Shown here one piece after another: positions 27,489 to 47,220 of a stretch of DNA of 54,338 nucleotides. A program made the translations under genes and the position numbers. A model generated the notes under the pieces. The model was not told where the DNA came from. It searched no databases and saw nothing but the letters and a program-made list of their open reading frames with translations. Source of the stretch: Deltaproteobacteria bacterium. Lineage in GTDB: Bacteria; Bdellovibrionota; FAC87; UBA2466. Every line of letters starts with the position of its first letter. Position 1 is the stretch's first letter. The stretch is taken from positions 1 through 54,338 of the forward strand of contig OMIX01000031.1 in assembly GCA_900299195.1 (NCBI GenBank). The letters run 5' to 3'.

Positions 27489-27854
27489 TTAGGCTATTTT
27501 CTGATTAGGGATTTCTCCCACAAAGTGTCTCACTTCGTGAAACTTAACTTGGGATGGAGCTAAAACTTTAGAAAAGTTATCCCAAACTCGTTTGGCGCTC
27601 ATCGAGTCATTGCAAAGAAAAATATTGGTAATGACCATCCGATATTCAGGCCATGTGCTCACTACAAAGTGGGACTCTTTCAGAATAAGACTCAATGTTA
27701 ACCCATGGGGTTGGAAACGATAATGAGAACTCTTGACCACAGTAGCCCCTTCTGCCTCTAAAGCCTGCCTTGCCATTTGTTCTAAGGCTTTGTGATCGCT
27801 TAAATCCAACTGACACCCATAGGCATCCACGATAAGTTCTGTGATTTGAGACAT
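27489..27854 (-). CDS. SpeD-like pyruvoyl decarboxylase homologue with altered active site
   Basis: 121 residues, the size of the short (Thermotoga-type) S-adenosylmethionine decarboxylase proenzyme. LIVDAYGCQLDLSD, SHYRFQPHG, LKESHFVVSTWPEY and IFLCND align with the family. The Glu-Ser bond cleaved to make pyruvoyl (ESH) and the catalytic Cys (Cys83 in T. maritima) are kept. The processing His (His68 in T. maritima, normally IHTWPE) is Ser here (VVSTWPE), and Ser55 is Thr (PHGLT). Some SpeD homologues are known to have changed into ornithine or arginine decarboxylases, so the substrate should not be assumed. ATG 27854 follows GAGGG; the divergent neighbour encodes a SpeE-type membrane domain. 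Confidence 0.8.
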   Translation of the reverse strand: MSQITELIVDAYGCQLDLSDHKALEQMARQALEAEGATVVKSSHYRFQPHGLTLSLILKESHFVVSTWPEYRMVITNIFLCNDSMSAKRVWDNFSKVLAPSQVKFHEVRHFVGEIPNQKIA

Positions 27855-27930
27855 GCTTGAACCCTCTGTGTGGGAATGGTTAAATAATAACACCAAAATG
27901 TTTGTTTAATTATATAATTTCAATAACCTC

Positions 27931-40411: not shown

Positions 40412-42004
40412 TCAATCAGGAAGAAAAATAAGATGATTCCCTCGATAGAAATAAAGACGATCTCGATTCGCTCGGTTCCAATCATACATGTAACGGCTGA
40501 CAGGAAGCGTATTGAGAGTATTGATTTTGACTTCAGGCATTTGCCAACCGGAATCGTAACGGCACAAAACTGAGAGAACTCCATTTCCAAAAATGGAAAC
40601 CTTCTGGCTAAACTTTTCCATATCAAAAGAGGAGTTTTTCGTTCCCATGACAAAAGCTTCTCTCTCCTCTGGGCTTACATAGGGAAAGGCTTTGAGTCCC
40701 ACAGAACGAACGGTATTAAGAATCGAAGCAGAAATCTTTGAAAGGGTCGTTCGACTGGGATCTTCTCGTAAATAGGAAGGCCCCGCTTGGATCGTCACAA
40801 AACCTTTTTCGGAAAGTAACTGAAATGTCGCTCGGTAAAACTCAGCTGAAAATAACCTAGCCAAAGTAAGATTTTTGGGCCATGGGAAATCTATGACGAT
40901 CAGATCATACTTATTTCGAGGTTTTCGATACTGTTCCATCACCCAACGAAAAGCATCGGCGACAATCACTTCCACTTTAGGATGGCTCAATGAGTCTTTG
41001 TTGTAACCTCTAAGAATCGGATTTTCTCGAGAAAGACGAATCATCACAGGATCCAATTCCACTAACGTAATTTTTTCAATCTGTTGGGATTTTAGAAGAT
41101 TTCTCACCGCTAAACCATCTCCACCGCCTAGGACTAGGGCAGTTTTTACTGGAATCTTCTCTACACTGGCTGCAAGCAATGGAATATCTGCAATACACAA
41201 ATGGTAGTTTTCTTCGGTTTCACTACTAAATTGAATAAACCCATCTAAAAATAAGAGACGTTCCTTAATGGGAGTTCCATTTTCCGAAACTTTATTTTCC
41301 TCGGTCATTAAAATTTTCTGGTAGTGACTTTGTTCATTTAAAATCAACTCTGCCACTCCAGTGCGATCCATCCTTGGAGCGATATGTACTTGGGCGAAGT
41401 AAAATGCTGCTAGGGGCAGAATCATCGAAATAGCGGCTAGTCCGAAGAGTTTTTTTTGGTACTCACGATTGAAAAGTAAAGCCATCACCACCACAAGGGA
41501 GGATCCGATTCCCAATACCAATCCCGTCTTGCTGTAGCCCAGGGGAACTAAGCAAACATAGGTAAAAATAAGGGTAAAAAGAATCGCTGCTAAATAATCG
41601 ATAAAAAACAATAGTCCTAAAGAAACTTTTTTTTCATCGTTCGCAATGCGCAAAGCTAGAGGGATAATCATGCCACAAAGAAGCCCCGAAAGAGCCATCA
41701 ATGCGAGCGGAACGATTATTAAGTTTCCATACCCCTTAATCCCAAATCTCAAAATGGGAATGGCACTCCCACTCAACGAGGCTAACACCAAAACAATCCC
41801 AGCCAAAAAAGCCAATGACGGTTGGGTCACCTTTTTAGACAAATAACTTCCCACTCCCAGAAACAATAAGTAGGTAGCCAAATTGACGGAGTAATAAAAA
41901 ACATCCTCGCTAAAAGCGGAGGTCCAATACCCTGATACTAGCATTTGGGTCATAAACCCTGCGCCCGAGCCCACCAAGGTCAAAAGGTAAATTAAAATTT
42001 GCAC
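40412..42004 (-). CDS. Membrane-anchored spermidine-synthase-like protein
   Basis: 530 residues. Residues 1-200 form about seven transmembrane helices; residues about 260-500 are a spermidine-synthase-like Rossmann domain with LVLGGGDGLAVRNLL (dcSAM/SAM site), KITLVELDPVMIRLS, the catalytic-loop region VIDFPWPKNLTLARLFSAEF and 'YRATFQLLSEKGFVTIQAG'. It should transfer an aminopropyl group from decarboxylated SAM and yield methylthioadenosine, or be a related SAM-using enzyme. It is last in the nine-gene operon that holds mtnP. The membrane part resembles the separate gene at 27931. Confidence 0.78.
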   Translation of the reverse strand: MQILIYLLTLVGSGAGFMTQMLVSGYWTSAFSEDVFYYSVNLATYLLFLGVGSYLSKKVTQPSLAFLAGIVLVLASLSGSAIPILRFGIKGYGNLIIVPLALMALSGLLCGMIIPLALRIANDEKKVSLGLLFFIDYLAAILFTLIFTYVCLVPLGYSKTGLVLGIGSSLVVVMALLFNREYQKKLFGLAAISMILPLAAFYFAQVHIAPRMDRTGVAELILNEQSHYQKILMTEENKVSENGTPIKERLLFLDGFIQFSSETEENYHLCIADIPLLAASVEKIPVKTALVLGGGDGLAVRNLLKSQQIEKITLVELDPVMIRLSRENPILRGYNKDSLSHPKVEVIVADAFRWVMEQYRKPRNKYDLIVIDFPWPKNLTLARLFSAEFYRATFQLLSEKGFVTIQAGPSYLREDPSRTTLSKISASILNTVRSVGLKAFPYVSPEEREAFVMGTKNSSFDMEKFSQKVSIFGNGVLSVLCRYDSGWQMPEVKINTLNTLPVSRYMYDWNRANRDRLYFYRGNHLIFLPD

Positions 42005-42016
42005 ACCTAGATTATC

Positions 42017-42673
42017 TCAGATTAATTCAAGAGCGAGAAGGGATGAATATTTACCTGGAGAACTCGTTTTTAGGCGCGTCATCACTGAAATCAAATCTTC
42101 AAAATAGTCGATATCTGCACATAAAGGGAGGGGTTCGATTTTCCCTAACGACTCTAGTTGGGCCTCCAAAGCTTTAGAGGTCGAAGATTCGCTGTAAGGG
42201 ATCGAAGTCCACACCTTTTTTGAAATGGCACAATTGCCTCCAAAAAGATAAAACCCGCCATCCGGAGTCTTACCTAGAACCATTTTAACTTCACTGCCCG
42301 AGCTCAAAATTTTAACTGCTTCACCCAAGAGTTCGGGAACCAACTCCGGAGAATCTGCCCCTAGGACCATGGCAGCTCCATATTTTTTCTGGAGTGGCTC
42401 GTAAACACTATGTAACCTTTCTCCCAGAGTACTCCCGGATTGACACACTCGGTCCCATCGGGACCACAGGGGATGACCCATCCCCTCTTCCTCTGCTACC
42501 GCCCAAATCGGAAGTAATTTACTATGGGTCCGAGCTTGCTCGAGTAGTTCTTGAGTCCATCGACAGCAAAGCCGATAAACACTTACCGCTTTTTCTTTTC
42601 CCACCGTTTGAGCTAATCGAGTTTTAACTTCAGAAAGTCCCGGGGTTTTCACAAAGACTGCAACAGGAATCAT
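42017..42673 (-). CDS. TIGR04282-type sugar-nucleotide transferase (DUF2064)
   Basis: 218 residues. MIPVAVFVKTPGLSEVKTRL is the signature of TIGR04282/DUF2064 proteins, and LGADSPELVPELL and LGKTPDGGFYLFGG complete the nucleotidyl-transferase-like pattern. In known clusters this family occurs with arsM/arsS as part of arsenosugar synthesis; those genes are absent here. It starts one base after the upstream TIGR04283 gene stops. Confidence 0.82.
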   Translation of the reverse strand: MIPVAVFVKTPGLSEVKTRLAQTVGKEKAVSVYRLCCRWTQELLEQARTHSKLLPIWAVAEEEGMGHPLWSRWDRVCQSGSTLGERLHSVYEPLQKKYGAAMVLGADSPELVPELLGEAVKILSSGSEVKMVLGKTPDGGFYLFGGNCAISKKVWTSIPYSESSTSKALEAQLESLGKIEPLPLCADIDYFEDLISVMTRLKTSSPGKYSSLLALELI

Positions 42674-42674
42674 A

Positions 42675-43370
42675 TTAAGTAGCCTTTTTTTTCTGACTGT
42701 AAATTCTTAAACACTCCGCCTTGGCCTGCTGGTAAGTCAGACTCAAATGGCGAATCGTGGTCTTCAACCACCCATGTTGAGAATATTTTCTTCCGCTCGT
42801 CAAAATTTTCCCACGAACCGGAAGGATCGGAATCCCTCTTTCGTGAGCTTTCCAAATCAACAAATGATCTTCTCCAAAGAGCGCGCTCTCATCATACCCA
42901 CCGAGCTCCCAAAAAAGTTTTTTAGAAATAAGAAAACCTTGATCCCCAAAAGGCAATTTCAACCAATGAGATCTCAGCCAAACCCCTAAACTATTGATGG
43001 CCATCCAACGCGGCCCATCAAAAAACCCTAAGTCGAAATAAAAGATTCCATTGTTAGCCAATTGGGCAGCTCTCTCAATTGCTTGAAAGGATGACGGCGT
43101 TAATTGAGAATCAGAGTGAAGAAACCAATACAGAGCCCTGCTGGATTGGCTTGCCCCCAGATTTAATTGTTTGGCTCGCCCTTCTTTCCCTTGGACTACT
43201 TTGACTTGGGCTTGCCCTTTGATTTTTTCGTTAACTTCTATAGGTTCTGAAGCGGAAAAAATAATTTCTACATCTTTCGGAAGTTTTTTAAGTTGTTTTA
43301 ATAAAAATGTCCAACTGGGATCTTTCTTCCCTATGGGAACAATAATTGAAAGTTCCTTAGCCCATTTCAT
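42675..43370 (-). CDS. TIGR04283-type GT2 glycosyltransferase
   Basis: 231 residues. A GT-A family 2 fold: ELSIIVPIGKKDPSWTFLLK, WFLHSDSQLTPSSFQ (DxD-like), 'WLKLPFGDQGFLISKKLF' and ELGGYDESALFGEDHLLIWK match the TIGR04283 family that pairs with TIGR04282. Together they are proposed to build a sugar precursor or glycosylate a lipid or nucleoside-derived ribose. Starts one base after mtnP. Confidence 0.82.
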   Translation of the reverse strand: MKWAKELSIIVPIGKKDPSWTFLLKQLKKLPKDVEIIFSASEPIEVNEKIKGQAQVKVVQGKEGRAKQLNLGASQSSRALYWFLHSDSQLTPSSFQAIERAAQLANNGIFYFDLGFFDGPRWMAINSLGVWLRSHWLKLPFGDQGFLISKKLFWELGGYDESALFGEDHLLIWKAHERGIPILPVRGKILTSGRKYSQHGWLKTTIRHLSLTYQQAKAECLRIYSQKKKAT

Positions 43371-43371
43371 T

Positions 43372-44211
43372 TTAGAGTTTTAACACTCGAATCATTTCAG
43401 TTTTGGATTCGGGAATTTCACGGGTCACGATCGCTCCTTGCAAACTTCGACGGCATGAGGATTCATCCTCATCCACTTTAGCCACAAAAACCCGTTTTAA
43501 CAGAGTTTGAACCTTCTCAATCGAACTCATGTACAGCGCCATGACTTTATCGACACTCACATGCTCGTTAGGATCCTCCATCCAACAATCGTAGTCAGTC
43601 GCCACAGCTAAAGTACAGTAGGATAATTGGGCCTCTCGAGCCAAAAAGACCTCGGGAACATTGGTCATCCCCACTAAATGACACCCATTATTTCTAAAAA
43701 GAAAACTCTCCGCCCGAGTTCCGAGTCTAGGCCCTTCCACACACACATAAGTTTTTCCGGTGTGCAGAGGAATTTTTTCCTCCTTAGCACACTTTTTTAC
43801 GAGTTCACTTAGGTGCGGACAGGTCGGTTCTGCAGTGGATATGTGCCCGACCACCCCTTCTCCAAAAAAAGTAGATTTTCTATATCCCCGAGTCCAATCC
43901 ATATATTGGCTGGGAATGGCTAACTCTCCAGGCCCGATTTCAGCTTGTAAACTCCCTACCGCGGAAACGCTAATGACTCTTTTCACTCCAAGAGATTTTA
44001 AAGCCCATAGGTTAGCTCGGTAATTAATTTCACTGGGAAGAAATTCATGGTGAATTCCGTGACGAGGCAAAAATGCGATGGAGTTTCCCTCGTAGGTACC
44101 TAAAGTGATTTCGGCCGATGGTTTTCCGAAGGGAGTCTCAACAGCCATCTTTCGAACTTCTCTCAAGGCCTCCATCTGATAAAGCCCCGTCCCGCCGATC
44201 ACTCCGAGCAT
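43372..44211 (-). CDS. mtnP: S-methyl-5'-thioadenosine phosphorylase
   Basis: 279 residues. MLGVIGGTGLYQMEALREVR, LPRHGIHHEFLPSEINYRAN, SVSAVGSLQAEIGPGELAIP and VATDYDCWMEDPNEHVSVDK are MTAP hallmarks; the DYDCW segment points to MTA over inosine/guanosine. It converts MTA and phosphate to adenine and 5-methylthioribose 1-phosphate. In this operon it should remove the by-product of the spermidine-synthase-like enzyme, or, in an arsenosugar-type pathway, split a 5'-deoxyadenosine derivative. Confidence 0.93.
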   Translation of the reverse strand: MLGVIGGTGLYQMEALREVRKMAVETPFGKPSAEITLGTYEGNSIAFLPRHGIHHEFLPSEINYRANLWALKSLGVKRVISVSAVGSLQAEIGPGELAIPSQYMDWTRGYRKSTFFGEGVVGHISTAEPTCPHLSELVKKCAKEEKIPLHTGKTYVCVEGPRLGTRAESFLFRNNGCHLVGMTNVPEVFLAREAQLSYCTLAVATDYDCWMEDPNEHVSVDKVMALYMSSIEKVQTLLKRVFVAKVDEDESSCRRSLQGAIVTREIPESKTEMIRVLKL

Positions 44212-44224
44212 ATAGCCCCCTTTT

Positions 44225-44809
44225 TCAAGGTAAATACTGCAAGGTTTCTTTCACTCCTGGGTAACCCATTAAAAACCAATAAGACCAAGTGGCAATTTGA
44301 ATGGTGTGTCCCACAAAAATAAAAAAGTGGCTCCACATTTCAATCCGATCGGAATTGCCCTCGTAAAATCGAAACCAATGCATGCCTTCGTCAATGATGC
44401 TGTAAAAAACAGAGAGGCCTACCATGCAAAGTGCAGGAATCTTTAAGAACTCGGGCCAGGTGTAAGCCAAACACAAAAGAACGCAACTGGAAATTCCAGC
44501 CGCAATCGTGATGTGATGGACCAAAGCTTCTCCCCGCTTCAACGCTTGCTTGTAAGCTGATCGATGTCCAATCGTATCAAAAGAGATTGCAACAATAAAA
44601 ATCACAGTTCCAATCGGAAGATTCCACACATAGGAGGGATACTGGACGCCGTTCAAATAGCCCACCGCTACAAATCCGCAAACGGAAAAGAGCAGCCCCA
44701 TCATCAAACCTACCCAAGCAAAATAAACTTTCCAATCTTCACGCTCGAAAGTTTTCATACGTTGAGCGTAAAAGACGATATCTTCTATAAAGTTTCGGGT
44801 GTACTCCAT
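44225..44809 (-). CDS. Histidine-rich membrane protein in the carotenoid operon
   Basis: About 194 residues with about five transmembrane helices. Conserved-looking His pairs sit at helix ends: DTIGHRSAYKQ, EALVHHITIAAGI, DEGMHWFRFYEGN and WSHFFIFVGHTIQ. Such spacing is seen in membrane di-iron hydroxylases and desaturases, although the HXXHH motif of CrtZ is not visible. Directly following crtI-crtB, with a 25-base overlap, it is likely a carotenoid-modifying or membrane-organising protein. Start 44809 (MEYTRN) has GGAG six bases upstream; an ATG at 44821 has none. I cannot assign a family. Confidence 0.6.
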   Translation of the reverse strand: MEYTRNFIEDIVFYAQRMKTFEREDWKVYFAWVGLMMGLLFSVCGFVAVGYLNGVQYPSYVWNLPIGTVIFIVAISFDTIGHRSAYKQALKRGEALVHHITIAAGISSCVLLCLAYTWPEFLKIPALCMVGLSVFYSIIDEGMHWFRFYEGNSDRIEMWSHFFIFVGHTIQIATWSYWFLMGYPGVKETLQYLP

Positions 44810-47220
44810 TGTTGTCTCCATAATGAGCTAATCATACTCCTCTTCCAGGGCCTGGCCAAACGATAAGGAAGAGTCATGAGAACCAACCCTAACCCGTGAA
44901 CGGCACAAAAGATTTTCTCCCAGGTAGAAACGACGGTTCTCGTATCCCAAGCCCTCTCACCTCGACGGACGACTTTTTTACCTATCGCAGAGTAAACACA
45001 GCTAGCCACAGCTACCGCTAAGGCAGCTCGGAATGATAAATATTTGAGTCCGCGATTGCCTGAATCATAATAAGCTTGAGCTTGATTCACTAATCTGCGA
45101 ACCAAATAAGCAATCGCCTGCCGGTGTTTCACAGCTCCAACTTCTGAGGGAGAGACTTCAACCTCTTTTAGCCATTGAGAGGGAAGATAGACTCTTCCCA
45201 TTTCAAAATCTTCAACGATGTCACGAGCGATATTAGTCATCTGCATCGCAGTCCCCATATCGGCCGCATTTTTCAGAGCGGTTTGTTCACTCACCCCCAT
45301 AATGTAAGACATCATCAGACCCACTACCCCGGCCACTCGATAACAATAAAGATTCAAATCATCGATGGTCTCATATTGATATCCTTCAGCATCCATGCGC
45401 ATGCCTTCAATAAGCTCTAAAGGATAGTAAGAGGGAATTTTGTACTGATTGACTATTAAACTTAAAGCTTTGAATTCCGTCGGCAATTGAGGCCTATTTT
45501 CATAAGCTGACTGAGTCAAATGACTTAATCGCTCAACTTTTTCCAGTCTGTTTTCCTTGGCTTTATCAATTTCATCATCGCAAAACCGACACCACCCATA
45601 TAAACAGAAAGCGGCATCTTTAACGGACGTGTCAAAAAGCTTGGATGCAAAAGAGAAACTTTTTGAACCGATCTCAATCATATTTTTACAATGGGTTAAC
45701 ACATCACTTTGAGTTGTTTTTAGTTCAATCGTTTCTTGAAAATCCTGAAGAATCAAATCAGCGGTTGCCCGAGCGGATCCTACTACCCCTGGCACACCTG
45801 CTCCGGGATGGGTTCCGGCGCCCACAAAATAAAGGCCAGATACTTTTTCATCTCGATTGTGGGTCCTAAAATAAGCACTTTGAGTCAATCTAGGCTCCAA
45901 CGAAAAAGCAGAGCCGTGGAAAGCATTCAACTCGGTCTTAAAATCAAGTGGAGTGAAAATACGTTGGGTGACTAAATGTTTTTTAAGCCCAGGGATATAT
46001 CTTTGATCCAAGTAAGTTAAAATTTTATCTGCATACTTAGGGCCTTCCACTTTCCAGTCGATATCCATTTTCCCCAAATGAGCCACAGGCGATAACACAT
46101 AGAAATTTTCATGTCCTGGGGGAGCTAACGAAGCATCCGTTCTCGTCGGCACATGGAGATAAAGCGAAAAATCATCTGGCAGAACACCATTGGTAAAAAT
46201 ATCCTTCAAAAGCTCTTTGTACCGAGGTCCAAAGAGAACATTATGGTGGGCCAAATGAGGATATTGCTTGTTGGTTCCAAAATAGATCAGAAAAAGAGAC
46301 ATGCTGTAATGCATTTTCTCTACTTTCTTTCGGGTCTTTTCCAATTCCGGCGTTTGGTTTAACAACTCACGGTAAGTATGGGCCACATCTGCATTACTGA
46401 CGACAAGATCAAAAGGCGTGATTTCACCTTTTTGATTCCGGATGCCAGTAACTTTCCCGTCGTGAGTTGCAATTTGGGCCACTTCAGCATTGCAGTGAAT
46501 CTTCCCTCCTAATTCTTCAAACAACCTGACTAAAGCCATCACTAAAGCATGGGTTCCGCCTCGAGCAAAATACACTCCCCACTTTCGCTCTAAATAGTGA
46601 ATCAAAGTGTAAATACTACTCGTATTGAAAGGGTTTCCCCCAACTAATAGAGAATGAAAGCTAAAAGCCTCAGCCAACTCTCTATCTTTGATAAAACTTG
46701 AAACCATCGAATAGACACTTCGATGGGCTTGCAATTTCATTAACTCTGGAGCGACTCTCATCATGCTCCAAAAATTAAGAAAGGGAACGTGAGCCAATTC
46801 CGAATATCCCGCTTCAAACACTTCGCGAGAGTACTCCAAAAACTTTTTATAGTTTTTAGCCTGACCCGGGGATTTTTTTTCTATCTGCTGCAACGTTTGT
46901 TCAAGATCAGCGGTGTAATCAAAAGTATAACCATTCTCCCAGCACAACTTGTAAAGAGGGGTCACAGGAATCAGTTCGCAATAATCTTCAAGTCGTCTTC
47001 CAGACAATTCAAATAGCTCTTTGAGACAATCAGGAGCCGTAATCACCGTGGGGCCGGCATCGAACGAAAATCCGTCTTGTTTAAAAACGTAAGCACGCCC
47101 ACCCGGAATGTCGCGTTTCTCATAGATCGTTGTTTGAATCCCGGCCGACTGCAACCGAATAGCGGCTGCCAATCCCCCAAAACCACTTCCAATAACTGCT
47201 GCTTTCTTTTGACTAGACAT
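44785..47220 (-). CDS. CrtI-CrtB fusion: phytoene desaturase + phytoene synthase
   Basis: 811 residues with no internal stop or frameshift. Residues 1-500 are CrtI: AAVIGSGFGGLAAAIRLQSA, PGGRAYVFKQDGFSFDAGPT and the C-terminal VGAGTHPGAGVPGVVGSARA. Residues about 510-811 are CrtB: SKSFSFASKLF, CRFCDDEIDKAKE (first Asp motif), GMRMDAEGY, and TNIARDIVEDFEMGRVYLPS (second Asp motif). CrtB joins two GGPP to phytoene and CrtI desaturates it to lycopene. The fusion would pair consecutive steps. The two halves are usually separate genes, while in fungi CrtY and CrtB are fused. It overlaps crtE by 8 bases. Confidence 0.92.
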   Translation of the reverse strand: MSSQKKAAVIGSGFGGLAAAIRLQSAGIQTTIYEKRDIPGGRAYVFKQDGFSFDAGPTVITAPDCLKELFELSGRRLEDYCELIPVTPLYKLCWENGYTFDYTADLEQTLQQIEKKSPGQAKNYKKFLEYSREVFEAGYSELAHVPFLNFWSMMRVAPELMKLQAHRSVYSMVSSFIKDRELAEAFSFHSLLVGGNPFNTSSIYTLIHYLERKWGVYFARGGTHALVMALVRLFEELGGKIHCNAEVAQIATHDGKVTGIRNQKGEITPFDLVVSNADVAHTYRELLNQTPELEKTRKKVEKMHYSMSLFLIYFGTNKQYPHLAHHNVLFGPRYKELLKDIFTNGVLPDDFSLYLHVPTRTDASLAPPGHENFYVLSPVAHLGKMDIDWKVEGPKYADKILTYLDQRYIPGLKKHLVTQRIFTPLDFKTELNAFHGSAFSLEPRLTQSAYFRTHNRDEKVSGLYFVGAGTHPGAGVPGVVGSARATADLILQDFQETIELKTTQSDVLTHCKNMIEIGSKSFSFASKLFDTSVKDAAFCLYGWCRFCDDEIDKAKENRLEKVERLSHLTQSAYENRPQLPTEFKALSLIVNQYKIPSYYPLELIEGMRMDAEGYQYETIDDLNLYCYRVAGVVGLMMSYIMGVSEQTALKNAADMGTAMQMTNIARDIVEDFEMGRVYLPSQWLKEVEVSPSEVGAVKHRQAIAYLVRRLVNQAQAYYDSGNRGLKYLSFRAALAVAVASCVYSAIGKKVVRRGERAWDTRTVVSTWEKIFCAVHGLGLVLMTLPYRLARPWKRSMISSLWRQQWSTPETL

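Follow-up and report, generated by a model that had tools for sequence, protein, structure and literature searches.

The window, i.e. the whole stretch of 54,338 nt that was analysed (contig OMIX01000031.1 of GCA_900299195.1; Bdellovibrionota; FAC87; UBA2466), carried a complete speD-like gene, with AGAGGG about 7 nt 5' of its ATG, divergent from the gene of a stand-alone 7-TM protein, TM1 (Table 1). TM2-SpeE, in which a 7-TM domain and a spermidine-synthase domain are joined in one protein, was encoded about 12 kb from TM1 in the window genus, and on the same contig as TM1 in G010 and G012 too. A single ORF of 811 aa (44785-47220, minus strand), within a carotenoid gene cluster, joined CrtI (residues 7-499) to CrtB (residues 507-802) as a fused carotenoid enzyme, phytoene desaturase plus phytoene synthase.

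Table 1. Features of the window, with coordinates and the observation on which each rests
Feature	Position	Strand	Basis
speD-like gene, 121 aa	27489..27854	-	Complete ORF, ATG at 27854, stop 27489-27491
Glu60-Ser61 codons, predicted self-cleavage site and pyruvoyl-forming Ser (T. maritima Glu62-Ser63)	27672..27677	-	Alignment; invariant in 8/8 orthologues
Ser66 codon, at the T. maritima His68 site	27657..27659	-	Alignment; Ser in 8/8 orthologues
Thr53 codon, at the T. maritima Ser55 site; common variant	27696..27698	-	Alignment
Cys81 codon, equivalent of catalytic Cys83	27612..27614	-	Invariant in 8/8 orthologues
His50 codon (T. maritima Tyr52)	27705..27707	-	Invariant His in the clade; possible, unproven stand-in
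SpeD/TM1 intergenic region, 76 bp, presumed shared promoter region	27855..27930	.	Divergent speD-TM1 pair kept in 8/8 genomes with the Ser68 SpeD
TM1, stand-alone 7-TM protein, 227 aa	27931..28614	+	PRK03612 E=5.5e-42, model positions 17-236
TM2-SpeE, 7-TM domain fused to spermidine-synthase domain, 530 aa	40412..42004	-	PRK03612 288.7 bits
S-methyl-5'-thioadenosine (MTA) phosphorylase	43372..44211	-	TIGR01694 300.8 bits, over cut-off; in the TM2-SpeE operon in the genus

The SpeD-like protein and the distribution of its His68 to Ser change

The SpeD-like protein matched Pfam AdoMet_dc PF02675 (E=3.7e-26) and fell just short of the NCBIfam threshold for TIGR03330, the SAM decarboxylase equivalog (74.2 bits, cut-off 75.65). 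It could be aligned over its full length with T. maritima SpeD (1tlu; about 30% identity; phmmer, MAFFT), with ESHFVVSTWPE set against ESHLTIHTWPE, and 1tlu was also the closest PDB structure (TM 0.83, rmsd 1.5) to its AlphaFold2 model (pLDDT 93, pTM 0.84). The sequence-only reading had held that the Glu-Ser cleavage site and the catalytic Cys were kept and that the equivalent of T. maritima His68 was Ser; the alignment agreed on every residue (E62=E60, S63=S61, C83=C81, and Ser66 at the His68 site, as in 8/8 orthologues). Its further point, Thr for Ser55, was confirmed as Thr53 but was unremarkable, as Thr55 occurred in 99 of 119 distinct His68 SpeDs (sequences mostly from viral contigs). Asp79 and Gly84 (T. 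maritima numbering) were both replaced by Asn. Glu60, Ser61, His62, Cys81, Phe47, Trp68 and Glu70 were invariant in all 8 orthologues (52-75% identity); the last three correspond to T. maritima Phe49, Trp70 and Glu72, which bind the adenosyl moiety of SAM.

Where dS was unsaturated, the gene was under purifying selection (dN/dS about 0.11; 0.39 for the closest pair), and it is not decaying. A pseudogene or a sequencing error was ruled out by the intact ORF and by the same change in 8 genomes. The window protein looks SpeD-like in all testable respects except His68 and the narrow equivalog miss, and it is not filed here as a standard AdoMet decarboxylase because the defining His68 was tested and found absent.

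Orthologues were present in 8 of the 15 genomes surveyed from the order of the source, in two families. All 8 read ESH[FL]xxSTWPE and GLT, and T. maritima sites 68, 55 and 52 were occupied by Ser, Thr and His, respectively. A wider motif search of 369 genomes of the phylum returned no SpeD with ESHxxxSTWPE besides these 8, and the sole extra pattern match, in G210, read ESHEYNRTWPE with Arg at site 68. Among the best 30 other SpeDs of the phylum by score, most of them ORFs long enough for a SpeD-SpeE fusion, His68 was present in 30/30. A loose motif search of the phylum gave chance matches everywhere and was uninformative.

In viral contigs, the loci read with ESHxxxxTWPE had His in 119 cases vs. 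Ser in 3, and scans with all Ser codon combinations yielded six contigs with five distinct Ser68 SpeDs (L139 6978-7379; L247 139-513; L249 3845-4342; L250 9607-10011; L251 5507-5896), all of which kept Glu-Ser-His, Thr55 and Cys. One of these divergent phage SpeDs sat on a 329-kb viral contig. Of the 119 His68 SpeDs, 8 had His at site 52; no phage Ser68 SpeD did, the residue there being Asp, Ile, Gln or Tyr, and His50 was rejected as a general substitute for His68. The SpeD tree had 2 label changes, bootstrap values of 2-4 and long branches, and was compatible with one origin of Ser68 or with several. As judged from the sequences compared, Ser68 is rare, recurs in SpeDs of divergent sequence and is fixed in this bacterial clade.

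Membrane partners and the second SpeD paralogue

TM1 had 7 hydropathy peaks, and its sequence match makes it a homologue of the PRK03612-type aminopropyltransferase membrane domain. TM2-SpeE lay directly 3' of TM1 in G001, G004 and G005, and SpeD, TM1 and TM2-SpeE occurred together in 8 of the 9 genomes carrying TM2-SpeE. TM1 adjoined TM2-SpeE in G005 (G005:C361; L078 8381-10638), yet SpeD of any type was undetected in that genome; the membrane pair may not always depend on its own SpeD, or the G005 genome may be incomplete. TM1 and the TM domain of TM2-SpeE were 26% identical (E 5.5e-7), and TM1 was the closer of the two to reference 7-TM domains (107-141 bits, vs. 29-57 bits for TM2). These comparisons are taken to mean that a membrane enzyme, likely homomeric, was split by duplication into the two subunits of a putative complex, TM1 and TM2-SpeE.

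TM2-SpeE, which scored below the curated PRK03612 cut-off of 472 bits, was the only SpeE-like gene of the genome; the other PF01564 match was an RsmD-like methyltransferase. GGGDG was kept in 9/9 sequences, along with the other decarboxylated-SAM motifs: VELDP, YQKI, the YH pair and the leading Asp of DFP. Users of decarboxylated SAM are told from 7-TM methyltransferases by the acidic residue of GxG(D/E)G (PMC10349129), and a 7-TM methyltransferase of the fungal NHMT type (PMC10349129) was considered less likely for TM2-SpeE because GGGDG is kept. The second Asp of DxPDP was lost in 8/9 TM2-SpeE (Trp, Ala, Tyr or Ser there), and both the Glu of YHE and the PSF-W (Trp) motif were lost in 9/9; all three were kept in the plasmid-borne 7-TM SpeEs compared. 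In the structures of spermidine synthases, the Trp motif and the second Asp of DxPDP are part of the amine acceptor site, and their loss argues that the acceptor of TM2-SpeE has probably changed.

In the window, TIGR04282- and TIGR04283-like glycosyltransferases and the MTA phosphorylase (42017-44211, minus strand) formed an operon with TM2-SpeE (40412-42004), an arrangement kept in six of six genomes of the genus. Both glycosyltransferases scored just under the cut-offs of their models, which are named for arsenosugar biosynthesis. In G003 the same set of two glycosyltransferases and phosphorylase adjoined an ArsM-like methyltransferase gene, near an ArsS (TIGR04167) gene, and for this reason the operon looks like an arsenosugar operon later joined by a SpeE gene. 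Literature searches for PRK03612 operons, and for arsenosugar or ArsS genes with a phosphorylase, returned no match.

A second SpeD paralogue of 150 aa (G000:C89:65679-66062; L055 1459-1911), reading ATSHISIHTFP and therefore with His68, Thr62 and Phe70, was found in all 8 genomes with the Ser68 SpeD. It was also present in G007-G009, in which no SpeE-like gene was found, so that it is more likely to decarboxylate a substrate other than SAM. The marks of the SpeDC ornithine decarboxylases are Gln, Thr, Phe and Tyr in the central region (PMC10407285); the Thr and Phe of the second paralogue fit two of these by an inferred column mapping, and make it a better candidate for a pyruvoyl ornithine decarboxylase than the Ser68 SpeD. 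The sole alanine-racemase-fold decarboxylase found in the genome was LysA-like. One relative only had a third SpeD-like fragment (G011:C24:33509-33649; L061), a 65-aa frame with WPEHGCASVDIFSCSS.

Ornithine or arginine had been offered in the sequence-only reading as a possible new substrate of the Ser68 SpeD, and that suggestion is not supported, the residues and the gene context pointing away from such an identity. The protein keeps the Phe, Trp and Glu of the SAM-adenosyl site, its gene co-occurs with that of a SpeE-like enzyme in which the decarboxylated-SAM motif is retained, and the ornithine role is fitted better by the paralogue with Thr62 and Phe70. By the same inferred mapping of the SpeDC columns, the window SpeD has Glu60 and Trp68 where the second paralogue has Thr and Phe. 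The SpeDA arginine decarboxylases are marked by loss of a Pro that is invariant in true AdoMetDCs (PMC10407285); the window SpeD keeps both Pro near the approximately placed SpeDA column, P49 and P69. Retention of His68 is expected by PMC10407285 in both the ornithine and the arginine decarboxylases of the SpeD family.

Proposed pairing of the His-less SpeD with a remodelled membrane enzyme

In AdoMetDC the second step of pyruvoyl formation is classically assigned to His68, or His243 in the human enzyme. The reading preferred here, for and against which the weight is about even, is that the His-less SpeD would still self-cleave at Glu60-Ser61, decarboxylate SAM and feed TM1 and TM2-SpeE, which would act on a non-standard acceptor. 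Glu60 would activate Ser61 to give the ester; Thr53, Ser66 or both, replacing His, would help to take the alpha proton, and the ester would eliminate to leave the pyruvoyl group. Cys81 would be catalytic as in other SpeDs. The role given to Thr53 and Ser66 is modelled on that proposed for Thr57 of the aspartate decarboxylase PanD, and processing of this kind may be slower or partner-assisted. The decarboxylated SAM would then pass to a membrane aminopropyltransferase of TM1 and TM2-SpeE with an acceptor other than an ordinary polyamine. SpeD and its remodelled membrane partner probably have altered chemistry as a pair.

PanD-like processing of a Ser68 SpeD is conceivable because activation of human AdoMetDC H243A was slowed at the ester-cleavage step, with accumulation of the ester, and not abolished, and because T. 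maritima S55A still activates and Glu62 is able to act as a base (PMC3975893). PanD Thr57 is required for activation and has been proposed for both steps (PMC3975893). Altered processing, which the sequence-only reading had suggested from both substitutions, was therefore a fair inference for the lost His, given the human H243A result; the change of Ser55 to Thr adds nothing to it, Thr being common at that site and S55A still undergoing activation. The preferred reading is also favoured by the invariant catalytic and SAM-site residues, the purifying selection, the joint occurrence of SpeD, TM1 and TM2-SpeE, and the GGGDG of TM2-SpeE, the one SpeE-like gene of the genome. The five phage Ser68 SpeDs, which keep Glu-Ser-His and Cys, unlike a dead paralogue, favour it too, as does the MTA phosphorylase in the TM2-SpeE operon, although this enzyme, beside arsenosugar-type genes in the genus, may serve that pathway instead. 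Against the preferred reading are the score just under the TIGR03330 cut-off, the occurrence of TM1 and TM2-SpeE in G005 with SpeD undetected, and the essential role that PMC10407285 assigns to His68 in self-processing of T. maritima SpeD.

It is possible, but rather unlikely, that the pyruvoyl group is still formed and that the substrate was switched, for example to another amine donor or to a nucleoside resembling SAM, the new group then being transferred by TM2-SpeE. Both active sites are altered (His68, Asp79 and Gly84 in SpeD; the acceptor motifs in TM2-SpeE), neofunctionalised SpeDs are common (PMC10407285), and TM2-SpeE has arsenosugar-type glycosyltransferases as neighbours in the genus. 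The adenosyl-holding residues are however invariant, Thr62 and Phe70, taken as two ornithine-decarboxylase marks, are absent from the Ser68 SpeD, and His68 is expected in the ornithine and arginine subfamilies as well (PMC10407285).

A dead, prozyme-like SpeD, able to bind SAM or its decarboxylated form and acting as the regulator or activator of a partner, with the second paralogue as the real enzyme, is improbable. The processing His is lost, a His68-bearing paralogue accompanies the gene in 8/8 genomes, and trypanosomatids have dead SpeD paralogues (PMC5201418). A dead protein would however offer no reason for the retention of Ser61, Glu60 and Cys81, whose strict conservation argues for a working, self-cleaving SpeD, and the second paralogue occurs in the SpeE-less G007-G009 and so is probably not the SAM decarboxylase.

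An ordinary SAM decarboxylase of the spermidine route that tolerates Ser for His, with TM2-SpeE as an ordinary spermidine synthase, would suit the normal fold and SAM-site residues and the Ser68 of phage SpeDs, but is very doubtful with the TM2-SpeE acceptor Asp lost in 8/9, the Trp motif and the YHE Glu lost in 9/9, and the membrane half duplicated as TM1.

A more speculative and less probable extension of the preferred reading is a His-free class of SpeD that forms its pyruvoyl group via Thr/Ser in one bacterial order and several phages. Its bacterial members would serve a membrane aminopropyltransferase of two subunits, with an acceptor other than a polyamine, for example an arsenosugar-type glycoside or a lipid. 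A conserved natural Ser at the His68 site in bacteria and divergent phages would show that the step is feasible without His, and Ser68 SpeDs are natural proteins in which the pyruvoyl mechanism could be tested. The changes in the membrane partner suggest that aminopropyl groups are transferred to an acceptor that is not a polyamine.

Comparison with known systems

Compared with class 1b AdoMetDC/SpeD (T. maritima TM0655, 1tlu), the window SpeD is alike in fold, length, Glu-Ser site, Cys and the Phe, Trp and Glu of the SAM site, and differs by Ser for His68, Thr at 55 and Asn at 79 and 84. SpeDA and SpeDC likewise combine a SpeD fold with altered conserved residues; they are expected to keep His68 and usually have other polyamine genes alongside (PMC10407285), and the window SpeD is without Thr62 and Phe70. 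PanD also forms its pyruvoyl group by self-processing dependent on a Thr (Thr57), but its activation involves PanZ (PMC3975893), and it serves here as a mechanistic analogy only, not as a relative. P. aeruginosa SpeD2-SpeE2 (PA4773-PA4774; PMC11107197) is likened by its pairing of an accessory class 1b SpeD with an atypical aminopropyltransferase, and differs in that SpeE2 has 349 aa and thermospermine as product (PMC11107197).

SpeD has been linked to operons of 7-TM PRK03612 aminopropyltransferases with DUF4178, DUF350 and SPFH (PMC11237479). On the plasmids compared, small SpeDs were encoded close to 7-TM SpeEs, and DUF4178, DUF350 and SPFH genes accompanied them in Novosphingobium; no DUF4178 or DUF350 partner was recognised around the window genes. 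Operons of this kind (Novosphingobium, Burkholderia, Ensifer, Gemmatirosa) resemble the window in having a small SpeD beside or near a 7-TM spermidine-synthase protein, but their own SpeDs keep His68 and their own SpeEs keep DxPDP, YHE and the Trp motif. The window system represents an altered form of this plasmid SpeD/7-TM SpeE kind of operon.
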